DNA of 64,000 nucleotides, from assembly GCA_900473805.1 (NCBI GenBank), contig UCMS01000001.1:1-64000 (forward strand), in the 5' to 3' direction. Under the pieces are notes generated by a model. The model did no database searches and was not told the origin of the DNA. It saw only the letters and a list, made by a program, of their open reading frames with translations. Of the stretch, positions 6,203 through 56,727 are shown one piece after another. Numbering within the stretch: position 1 is the stretch's first letter; each line of letters begins with the position of its first letter. Source of the DNA: Hyphomicrobiales bacterium. GTDB taxonomy: Bacteria > Pseudomonadota > Alphaproteobacteria > Rhizobiales > Rhizobiaceae. The translations under genes and the position numbers were made by a program.

Positions 6203-6278
<76 letters not shown>

Positions 6279-54474: not shown

Positions 54475-54642
54475 ATGGCCAAGGCTACAACCATTAAGAT
54501 CAAGCTTCTGTCGACGGCCGACACGGGTTTCTTCTACGTTACCACGAAGAACAGCCGTACGATGACGGACAAGATGACGAAGACCAAGTACGACCCGATT
54601 GCTAAGAAGCATGTCGAGTTCAAGGAAACCAAGATCAAGTAA
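54475..54642 (+). CDS. rpmG: 50S ribosomal protein L33
   Basis: 55-residue L33: [20 protein letters not shown] then [20 protein letters not shown] and [16 protein letters not shown]. It has no cysteines, so it is the zinc-free (C-minus) form. The start is the canonical MAKA and the frame extends upstream without L33 similarity. A strong terminator follows 22 bases after the stop. Confidence 0.97.
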
Positions 54643-54664
54643 AACTTGATCCCAGCGGCTCCAC

Positions 54665-54697
54665 AAAAAGGCGTGTCACTCTGTGACGCGCCTTTTT
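54665..54697 (+). terminator. Rho-independent terminator of rpmG
   Basis: AAAAAGGCG-t-GTCAC-tct-GTGAC-g-CGCCTTTTT, a long stem ending in a T-run on the plus strand. The A-run on the other side means it could also act on minus-strand transcripts. Confidence 0.93.
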
Positions 54698-54747
54698 CTT
54701 TGGCAAATCCGAGCCAGTGCCTCCCCTGAAGCCCTCCCCTTCGCGCA

Positions 54748-54906
54748 AACAAAAACACCGGCCTCCCACAGGGAGACCGGTGTTTCGCTGATAGGGGGTC
54801 GGTCGGCATGCAAACACGGCACGAGGAACCGTTTTGACGTTGCACACCAACCGACCGACCCCACGACCCAGGAGATGCGGCGGACCTGAGCATCATGGGG
54901 TATCCA
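54748..54906 (-). ncRNA. Candidate independently transcribed small RNA between rpmG and pleD
   Basis: About 158 nt on the minus strand with its own promoter, strong structure and own terminator, and no believable ORF. A 12-bp perfect stem GGGGTCGGTCGG (54795-54806) / CCGACCGACCCC (54851-54862) encloses a smaller hairpin region. The 3' end is a textbook terminator (54753-54785: AAACACCGG-c-CTCCC-aca-GGGAG-a-CCGGTGTTT) with a T-run when read on the minus strand. Location next to pleD, length and architecture fit the trans-acting sRNA families of rhizobia (alpha-r type; the Smr9C family is my first guess, from memory). Not a tRNA, 4.5S RNA or tmRNA. Confidence 0.72.
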
Positions 54907-54912
54907 GAACCT

Positions 54913-54941
54913 CTTAGAGAGGTCTTTTTCGATGTGGTCAA
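54913..54941 (-). promoter_or_regulatory. Sigma-70-type promoter of the sRNA candidate
   Basis: On the minus strand TTGACC (54936-54941) and TCTAAG (54913-54918) are separated by 17 bases. The start of transcription is expected about 7 bases further, near 54906, just ahead of the structured RNA. Confidence 0.6.
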
Positions 54942-55309
54942 ACTCTCTTAAGTAGAGAAAAAAATCAACAGTTTATTAACTGCCGTACGTTGCATGCTCT
55001 TGATATGGTTAAATTCGGGACAGAAGACTTGTTCAATCAGACTTGCTACGCGCCAGGTAAACATTGTTCCGTGAACAAGCCCACAGTCTAAGTCGCAAGC
55101 AACAGGTTTAGTCCCGCAAGCCGCAGCATTTTCCGCGATCCGCGGCACACGCGGAGATTAAAGATAAATCTAATATAAAGATATAGCTTTATGTCGGGAA
55201 ACAACACGCGTCGATCGACGCCAGCCAACGGATTCTATTGAACAGCAATAGTGTCACAGGCAAAACGATACATTTGAAACTGCTTAAAATCGGTGCAAAA
55301 TGCATGAAA
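54942..55309. other. A+T-rich intergenic region downstream of pleD
   Basis: About 370 bases, noticeably A+T-rich, with no credible ORF or repeat. Runs such as TAATATAAAGATATAGCTT occur near 55170. I see nothing else that can be named. Confidence 0.5.
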
Positions 55310-55353: not shown

Positions 55354-56727
55354 TCACGCCGCGGCGGCAACCACACGATTGCGACCGGAATTCTTGGCTT
55401 CGTATAGCGCCTTATCGGCCTGCTTGAGCAATTGCTCCGGCGTGTCGATGCCTGGCCCCAGCGTGGCAATCCCCATGGAGGCGGTCAGCATCAACGGTGT
55501 CTCGCCCGAACGCAGCTGGAAGGGCCGCGCCTCGATCATCAGGCGCAGGCGTTCCGCCACGTTGGCGGCCACTTCCGCCGGCGTGTCGGGCATGACCACC
55601 ACGAACTCCTCGCCGCCGTAGCGGCAAGCCAGATCGGCGCCGCGTACGGTCGACCTGATCCGTCCGGAAAACTCCTTCAGGACCTCGTCGCCGGCATCGT
55701 GGCCGAACTGGTCGTTGACCAGCTTGAAGCGGTCGATATCGGTGATGCAGATGGTGAGCGGACGGCCTCGAACCTTGGCGCGGGCAAAGAGTGTGCGCAG
55801 CTGGGTATCGAGATAGCGACGATTGTGGAGACCGGTCAGGCCATCGGTGACGGCAAGCTCGATCGTCTGGCGCACGCTGTTGCGGAGGCGATCATTGTAG
55901 CGCTTGCGGCGCACCTGGGTCAGCGCGCGGGCGACGAGTTCGTTCGGATCGAGCGGACGCACGATGTAATCGTTCACGCCGAGATCAAGCGCGCGGATGA
56001 TCATCTGTTCGTCACCCTGCTCCGTAATCAGCAAGATCGGGATGAAGCGTGTGCGCTCCAGGGAACGGAGCTGGGAGCAGAAGCGAAGCGGATCGTAATC
56101 TGCAAGGTTGCTGTTGACGATGACGAGGTCGTAGCCGTTTTCGGCGGCTTCGAAGACGGCGGCCTGGGGATCGGACAGCGCGCTGACTTCGGCGATCGGC
56201 TTCAATGCCTTGACGATGCGCTCCTGAGAAGCGCCCCGGCTGTCGACGAGCAGGACCTGGGCCTGCTCTTCGAGCCGGCCGTCGGTCAGGCGCAGGGCGT
56301 CCTCGACGCCGGCCTGACGCGTTCCATCGTGGCGCAGACGTAATTCGTCGCTCAGCGTCTTCAGCCGGACCAGGCTCTTCACCCGCGAAATGAGCTGCAG
56401 GTCGTTGACCGGTTTGGTCAGAAAGTCGTCGGCACCGGCCTTCAGGCCGCGGACGCGGTCGGAGGGCTGGTCGAGCGCGGTGACCATGACGACGGGGATA
56501 TGGGCTGTACGCGGGTTGGATTTCAGCCGCTCACAGACCTCAAAGCCGTCCATTTCCGGCATCATAATATCGAGCAGGATCACATCGACCTGGGTGCGGT
56601 CACAGATATCGAGGGCATCGAAACCGTTGTTCGCCGTCAGGACGTCGAAATACTCCGCCATCAGCCGCGCTTCGAGCAGCTTCACATTGGCGGGTATATC
56701 GTCGACGACCAGTATGCGCGCAGTCAT
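55354..56727 (-). CDS. pleD: PleD-type response regulator / diguanylate cyclase
   Basis: 457-residue REC-REC-GGDEF protein, the same layout as Caulobacter PleD. The phospho-acceptor is Asp53 in LLDIMMPEMDG. The second receiver (about 155-270) lacks a clear acceptor pocket and serves as an adaptor. The cyclase domain has the active site GGEEF at 371-375 and the product-inhibition I-site RGAD (Arg362, Asp365) just upstream. It makes c-di-GMP when phosphorylated and controls polar development in Caulobacter. It lies 12 bases downstream of divK, so the two are one operon. All catalytic and regulatory motifs are intact. Confidence 0.97.
   Translation of the reverse strand: MTARILVVDDIPANVKLLEARLMAEYFDVLTANNGFDALDICDRTQVDVILLDIMMPEMDGFEVCERLKSNPRTAHIPVVMVTALDQPSDRVRGLKAGADDFLTKPVNDLQLISRVKSLVRLKTLSDELRLRHDGTRQAGVEDALRLTDGRLEEQAQVLLVDSRGASQERIVKALKPIAEVSALSDPQAAVFEAAENGYDLVIVNSNLADYDPLRFCSQLRSLERTRFIPILLITEQGDEQMIIRALDLGVNDYIVRPLDPNELVARALTQVRRKRYNDRLRNSVRQTIELAVTDGLTGLHNRRYLDTQLRTLFARAKVRGRPLTICITDIDRFKLVNDQFGHDAGDEVLKEFSGRIRSTVRGADLACRYGGEEFVVVMPDTPAEVAANVAERLRLMIEARPFQLRSGETPLMLTASMGIATLGPGIDTPEQLLKQADKALYEAKNSGRNRVVAAAA

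Follow-up and report, generated by a model that had tools for sequence, protein, structure and literature searches.

The segment between rpmG and pleD of a Ciceribacter-like Rhizobiaceae genome very probably holds the small RNA gene ecpR1

What does the segment between rpmG and pleD of this Rhizobiaceae genome encode? The window analyzed here is a stretch of 64,000 nucleotides (contig UCMS01000001.1, positions 1 to 64,000). On its plus strand, rpmG (54475-54642) encodes the ribosomal protein L33, with TIGR01023 and PF00471 both above cut-off. On the minus strand, pleD (55354-56727) encodes a response regulator-GGDEF diguanylate cyclase (699.6 bits with the NCBIfam PleD equivalog model, whose cut-off is 474). 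A single-domain response regulator gene assigned by PF00072 (56740-57111, minus strand) owes its name divK to its synteny with pleD, none of the 25 NCBIfam matches listed for it lying above its own cut-off. Of the named organisms whose loci were fetched, Ciceribacter lividus has the most similar PleD (80% identity), from which we infer that the window belongs to a Ciceribacter-like member of the Rhizobiaceae. The cmscan analysis of the whole window against Rfam 15 reports, besides three tRNAs, a single small RNA (sRNA): a match with RF02500 (Atu_C6, described as EcpR1) at 54792-54903 of the minus strand (99.1 bits, gathering score 60), which spans the complete model (positions 1-113 out of 113) and is the only copy in this genome. 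The locus bears the invariant segment C16-G36 with its loop UCCGCCGCAUCU, the two stem-loops SL1 and SL2 and then a Rho-independent terminator, and its location between divK-pleD and rpmG is that of EcpR1. The region 54751-54934 (minus strand) is thus almost certainly the ecpR1 gene of a Ciceribacter-like Rhizobiaceae member, coding for a stand-alone trans-acting sRNA. Family membership is a direct observation on this DNA, as are the covarying structure, the synteny, the promoter footprint and the gcrA complement with its rarity in genomes devoid of EcpR1. An intergenic segment without a name hereby becomes a gene whose function has been tested in a close relative. The sRNA gene is real, yet already known, and the find is mostly ordinary, since EcpR1 has already been described as an adjuster of the rhizobial cell cycle in times of stress. 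For this locus, the family, the stem register and the promoter are corrected with respect to the preliminary description, and the comparison of genomes adds a predicted promoter register, a leader hairpin, a gcrA site that tracks the sRNA and a candidate CtrA-like upstream pair.

EcpR1, also named SmelC291, SmrC10 and Sra33, has been studied in Sinorhizobium meliloti, in which it likewise lies between divK-pleD and rpmG and forms its own transcription unit, with forms of 171, 142 and 101 nt (PMC4414408). There, stress and stationary phase induce it, an effect to which ppGpp contributes, and its loop 1 pairs with gcrA and dnaA to repress them; the regulation of dnaA depends on RNase E, Hfq is dispensable, and EcpR1 overproduction yields elongated cells (PMC4414408). 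By homology, the expression, processing, repression and phenotype of the EcpR1 described here may resemble those of S. meliloti. Both loci share the family model, the two stem-loops, an identical loop 1, the terminator, the position relative to rpmG and divK-pleD, and the promoter register, as well as an equally distant site in the gcrA leader. They differ in the letters of the leader and of SL2, in length (184 nt predicted here, 171 nt in S. meliloti), in the -10 hexamer (AGAGTT here, CAATGC there) and in dnaA pairing, for which the present genome offers a 7-nt complement.

The preliminary description rightly recognized a rhizobial trans-sRNA that is conserved, has a promoter and a terminator of its own and bears on the cell cycle, which is RF02500/EcpR1. 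It named the Smr9C/alpha-r9 family (SmelC289) as a possible identity, for which a similar length and a rhizobial chromosomal setting would speak. An alpha-r9 model is present in Rfam. The Rfam search did find an sRNA family at this place, although RF02500 and not alpha-r9: it is the sole sRNA family to reach its gathering score, no other one doing so in the scan of the window or among the weak matches of 54500-55200. SmelC289, or SmrC9, is also a conserved rhizobial trans-sRNA of similar size; however, it belongs to another family, and its relatives adjoin the prolyl-tRNA synthetase gene with one exception (PMC3927594), whereas the neighbors are rpmG and pleD here. In addition, a review table has SmrC9 and SmrC10/EcpR1 as separate genes (PMC7143759). 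The complete match with another family therefore refutes the alpha-r9 identity, which retains next to no credibility. The suggested link with pleD and c-di-GMP control finds no support either, since overproduced PleD or DivK left the activity of the ecpR1 promoter unchanged in S. meliloti, where divK was also tested as an EcpR1 target and not confirmed (PMC4414408).

The location of the EcpR1 promoter was approached by comparing 21 Rhizobiaceae loci chosen by hand. Two blocks stand out upstream of ecpR1, TTAACC and TTAA-N7-TTG[AC]T. The latter occurs in 20 of the 21 (window included) and is followed, 17 nt further, by a variable hexamer that is often CAANTT-like. The published S. meliloti spacing was found in three of 20 genomes of one genus, and these three loci, presumably from S. 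meliloti or close kin, carry downstream the stretch AGGAAGGAAACTTCCA, which matches the published sigma-54-type motif. The three loci fix the register, and the predicted sigma-70 promoter therefore covers 54941-54968 of the minus strand (-35 TTGATT at 54968-54963, -10 AGAGTT at 54946-54941) with a start near 54934. This predicted start lies 31 nt upstream of position 54903, as compared with 29 nt in S. meliloti, so that the putative promoter precedes a leader of the ~29-nt type. The primary transcript would consequently run from 54934 to 54751 (~184 nt), its 5' end being set by register with the mapped 5'1 end of S. meliloti, while the first base of the EcpR1 core, 54903, would correspond to the processed 5'2 end. 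The ~158 nt first proposed for this RNA fall short of the predicted primary transcript; a form of ~153 nt would match the processed S. meliloti 5' end.

The same promoter bears on whether the RNA is an independent gene or a product of the 3'-UTR of the divK-pleD mRNA. The sRNA is on the same strand as pleD and downstream of it, as such a product would be. However, ~420 nt separate its predicted start from pleD, a conserved promoter lies just upstream of this start, and in S. meliloti ecpR1 is an independent unit in which a mutation of the sigma-70 -10 element abolishes the RNA (PMC4414408), which makes a 3'-UTR origin highly improbable.

The promoter originally proposed for the sRNA, TTGACC-N17-TCTAAG (54913-54941, minus strand), is present as letters (TTGACC at 54941-54936, TCTAAG at 54918-54913) but is probably wrong, the footprint placing the promoter 27 bp further upstream. 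Its -35 hexamer shares its first base with the end of the conserved -10, and a consensus promoter scan did not list it. Four of the 21 Rhizobiaceae have a TTGAC in the 75 nt preceding the invariant 21-mer, with a -10-like partner in the window alone. Moreover, TCTAAG is the apex of a hairpin, GACCUCU-CUA-AGAGGUU (54908-54924, minus strand), which folds within the predicted 31-nt leader and outside the Rfam model. A leader stem of at least 5 pairs is present in 22 out of 24 leaders (the 21 Rhizobiaceae and the three S. meliloti-like loci), and the longest stem averages 5.75 pairs, as compared with 3.98 in shuffled leaders, none of 500 shuffled sets reaching the observed sum; in this test, many single leaders equal their shuffles and some rows are close kin. 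The distance between the hairpin and 5'2 varies from 1 to 21 nt. The position, the lack of conservation, the absence from the scan and the inclusion of the -10 in the leader hairpin led us to judge that TTGACC/TCTAAG is not the promoter.

Could these hexamers nevertheless form a second, lineage-specific promoter, with a start near the processed 5'2 place? The hexamers and their spacing do exist, their start would fall near 54903, and a sigma-54-type promoter-like motif has been noted at the corresponding place in S. meliloti (PMC4414408). However, the partner hexamer is not conserved even in Ciceribacter lividus (CTCGGG), and TCTAAG is inside the leader hairpin, in which the pairing is kept and the letters are not. 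In the S. meliloti-like genomes, the leader hairpin falls on the published sigma-54-type motif, which would be the same hairpin in other letters. As the letters differ between genera while the pairing stays, this motif is more simply explained as a leader hairpin, and a second promoter appears quite unlikely. The hairpin hence sits where a promoter was read in the present genome and a sigma-54-type motif in S. meliloti; a full-length fold displaying it may already be published.

The RNA itself is strongly structured. The 158-nt segment 54748-54905 folds at -85.5 kcal/mol, as compared with a mean of -56.2 for shuffled sequences (z -7.1), none of 200 shuffles being as low. Loop 1, UCCGCCGCAUCU (54873-54884, minus strand), is the target-binding loop by the fold and by the loop motif named for S. 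meliloti (PMC4414408). It belongs to the invariant 21 nt at 54868-54888 (minus strand), corresponding to C16-G36 of S. meliloti EcpR1, a segment reported as identical across the analyzed species (PMC4414408). This 21-mer is identical in 99/99 aligned sequences by selection, since all of them hold the exact 21-mer, having been fetched by it or taken as the best model hits containing it. The alignment retained 99 of 150 sequences, window included, after filters for redundancy, length and N. Outside this set, one EcpR1 (L266 497-609, in genome G456) has an altered loop segment, CGGGGCAGCCGCATCTCCTGG, an exception to the reported identity, and its targets may differ. Downstream of SL1, stem-loop 2 (54797-54856, minus strand) presents a UCCUCG loop motif, and the intrinsic terminator consists of a hairpin and a U tract (54748-54789, minus strand). 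The terminator initially reported is borne out: its hairpin covers 54754-54784 ahead of the T run, and 18 of the 21 Rhizobiaceae, window included, have a hairpin before a T run. Of note, a near-perfect inverted repeat with A5/T5 flanks is located at 54665-54697, between rpmG and ecpR1, and could terminate transcription from both sides.

As for the 12-bp stem of the preliminary description, the inverted repeat 54795-54806/54851-54862 is perfect as letters but does not pair in that register. Both the minimum-energy fold and the Rfam structure have the conserved hairpin shifted by four bases, so that 54856 pairs with 54797 and not with 54801; it forms 17 bp in this genome, and GGGGU (54862-54858), in the 5' arm of the repeat, is part of the SL1 lower stem. 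In the 99 aligned sequences, the consensus structure is paired in 96.3% of the cells against 88.7% in shuffles, with 157 cells changed on both sides (49.8 in shuffles) and a covariation score of 0.314 (0.164 in shuffles), none of 500 shuffles being as high on any of five measures. Versions of this structure slid along the alignment reach at most 58.2% pairing. Consensus folding returns 19 pairs, 12 of which have changes on both sides, and in SL2 this is the case for all 11 counted pairs. The 12-bp register, by comparison, is paired in 83.3% of the cells (shuffles 82.3%) with a score of 0.205 (shuffles 0.189), and both bases have changed in 7 of its pairs (5.9 in shuffles), a number reached by 164 of 500 shuffles. 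Compensatory changes are thus strong in the same arms shifted by four bases and barely exceed shuffles in the exact register, which is not supported; the SL2 hairpin is real, and the 12-bp pairing is not the conserved one. In sum, the earlier observations were partly confirmed, for the letters of the repeat and the terminator and not for the stem register and the promoter, and their interpretation held for the kind of RNA and not for its family.

The same covariation bears on a possible coding role. The statement that no ORF fits the segment needs amending, as minus-strand ORFs of 135, 71 and 62 residues cross it mechanically, which might be taken for a small protein gene. Nothing suggests coding, however: compensatory changes preserve base pairs, and the SL2 loop region differs in length between relatives. 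A small protein in place of the sRNA is therefore highly improbable.

EcpR1 being the preferred identity, its putative targets were searched in this genome, in which gcrA lies at G000:C58 and dnaA at G000:C36. The gcrA leader contains AUGCGGCGGA at -110 to -101, a 10-nt perfect complement of loop 1, at about the place of the S. meliloti gcrA site tested at -109 to -95 (PMC4414408). A loop 1 complement ~100 nt upstream of the gcrA start, as expected for EcpR1, is thus present as sequence. When scored against the 11-letter gcrA site TGCGGCGGACC, the present genome matches 9 of 11 letters, with a perfect run of 10. In so G+C-rich a genome, duplex energies are uninformative as target evidence: among 300-nt stretches taken at random from the window, 12% bind loop 1 as well as the gcrA leader does, and 33% as well as dnaA. 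For dnaA, the complement of loop 1 is the 7-nt CAGGAGA at -17, and no common site was found among the 11 starts located out of 31. The gcrA promoter region of this genome (L152) and of the aligned leaders also displays, upstream of the EcpR1 site, a conserved GACTCTTGTCAC.GAGTC block that includes two GANTC sites of the CcrM type. Among the control genomes, the archaeon Sulfolobus acidocaldarius exceeds the cut-off of the GcrA family, which is unexpected.

Comparison of many genomes indicates that the gcrA pairing site goes with EcpR1. Of the first 30 gcrA leaders, 14 were aligned, nine of them with TGCGGCGGA, four with TGCGGCGA and one, from a genome devoid of EcpR1, with TACGACGGA. Between -140 and -60 of gcrA, a perfect match of 8 nt or longer was found in 36/49 EcpR1-positive, 1/8 negative and 0/2 weakly positive genomes; the 21-mer is absent from these eight negative genomes even when 3 mismatches are allowed. 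At least 10 of the 11 letters of TGCGGCGGACC are present in 35/51 positive and weakly positive genomes against 0/8 negative ones, and in 35/45 against 0/4 if the leaders keeping the upstream gcrA promoter block are considered. With seven more negative genomes, the contrast is 35/51 against 0/15 (Fisher 1e-6), and with all genomes read 36/54 EcpR1-bearing against 1/16 EcpR1-less ones (Fisher 2e-5), values that are overstated because the genomes are not independent, kinship being ignored in all gcrA counts. The last count adds as bearers G424 (10/11), G456 (9/11) and G452 (6/11), the latter two of which carry EcpR1 matches, and as a non-bearer G381, which keeps a 10/11 site and whose two 3-mismatch loop hits are not EcpR1; neither are the 3-mismatch loop hits of G375 and G357. 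A perfect run of at least 10 nt occurs in 31/51 gcrA leaders against 0/15 from EcpR1-less genomes. The contrast shrinks with looser letter cut-offs, to 44/51 against 4/15 at 9 or more letters and 46/51 against 7/15 at 8 or more, and 16 of the 51 positive and weakly positive genomes lack a near-intact site. Of two genomes from one genus, G424 bears EcpR1 and has TGCGGCGAACC, and G331 is devoid of EcpR1 and has TACGGCGAACC. The count of 51 leaves aside G353 (no recognized gcrA start) and G338 (no gcrA match), and the negatives leave aside three reduced genomes devoid of EcpR1 without a recognized gcrA start (G164, G369 and G385); of the 37 family genomes without a match, 17 are outside the gcrA comparison. 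Two candidates for a natural compensatory change between sRNA and target were discarded: the G338 hit lies, by eye, in an apparent coding sequence, and the altered EcpR1 loop of G456 does not fit its altered gcrA site.

If the S. meliloti findings apply, EcpR1 would be transcribed from its sigma-70 promoter in stressed and in stationary-phase cells, with stimulation by ppGpp, as an RNA composed of a short leader hairpin, two stem-loops and the terminator, and its 5' end would be trimmed. The single-stranded loop 1 could then pair with AUGCGGCGGA in the gcrA leader and perhaps also with the ribosome-binding region of dnaA, thereby lowering the cell-cycle regulators GcrA and DnaA when growth is unfavorable.

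Upstream of ecpR1, two elements on the minus strand resemble CtrA sites. The first, TTAA-N7-TTGAT (54964-54979), overlies the predicted -35, is conserved in the Rhizobiaceae and looks like a degenerate CtrA box; the second, TTAACCAT (55005-55012), is similar to a CtrA half-site, lies 33 bp upstream of the TTAA element and has a conserved TTAACC. CtrA sites have been described as full TTAA-N7-TTAAC and half TTAACCAT (PMC3692519), and as the consensus TAA-N7-TTAAC in S. meliloti (PMC3616915); the latter has no match in the window. TTAACC is found 32-33 bp upstream of TTAA-N7-TTG[A/C]T in 17 of the 21 Rhizobiaceae and in all three S. meliloti-like loci. Over both strands, the window contains TTAACC 10 times, at a density of ~0.012 per 150 nt, and TTAA-N7-TTG[AC]T a single time, at ecpR1; TTAA-N7-TTGATTT occurs once in the 4.9-Mb genome, at ecpR1. 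Against a CtrA role, of the 148 sequences with enough upstream DNA (the window being counted twice, also as L001), TTAACC is present in 56, TTAA-N7-TT[AG]A in 68 and both in 43, and among the Mesorhizobium loci listed, the distance to TTAACC is ~27 bp rather than 33. Four loci from other families of the order (L126, L127, L133 and L138) have GATTGATTC with GANTC upstream of ecpR1 and are devoid of TTAA-N7-TTGAT. The accessible parts of the literature on EcpR1, CtrA and this promoter report no CtrA site at ecpR1 and do not describe the conserved TTAACC and TTAA-N7-TTG[A/C]T pair, and "EcpR1", "pleD" and "sRNA" do not occur in the main text of the article on CtrA ChIP-seq in S. meliloti (PMC4433202). 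The pair stays a lead. If its elements are CtrA sites, a cell-cycle master regulator would be wired to a stress sRNA that lowers GcrA and DnaA. A wider and rather doubtful proposal, built on these motifs, is that CtrA directly binds and controls the Rhizobiaceae ecpR1 promoter via the phased TTAACC/TTAA-N7-TTGAT, closing a loop in which CtrA activates EcpR1, EcpR1 represses GcrA and GcrA activates CtrA, that gcrA is the ancestral target whose pairing site decays upon EcpR1 loss, and that the leader hairpin, so far misread as a promoter motif, sets 5'-end processing.

Two other RNAs invite comparison. CcnA of Caulobacter crescentus is also a noncoding RNA acting on gcrA with a CtrA box at its own promoter, but it is coded at the replication origin and acts on ctrA as well (PMC8959179). 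Similarly, GspR (SmelC775), a trans-sRNA of S. meliloti, has a cell-cycle regulator as its target, namely ctrA, but has been reported in Sinorhizobium only and has other targets (PMC5928217).

Regarding distribution, RF02500 matches were found in 204 of the 297 genomes of the order (165 over cut-off), in 162 of the 199 of the family (157 over cut-off) and in none of 14 control genomes. Among the small genomes listed for the family, RF02500 is missing from six of 1.1-2.0 Mb and is matched weakly in one of 1.5 Mb. Of 149 fetched loci, in which some species are represented more than once, 136 leave room downstream of ecpR1, and 106 of these have rpmG on the opposite strand at a distance of no more than 900 nt; upstream, 76 leave room, and divK is found there on the strand of ecpR1 in 69. 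A putative EcpR1 adjoining rpmG has also been mentioned for Methylosinus sporium in a 2025 study (PMC12403871). The three tRNAs of the window, all on the minus strand, are tRNA-Gly(TCC), tRNA-Tyr(GTA) and tRNA-Thr(TGT), within 1798-1977 and 6203-6278.
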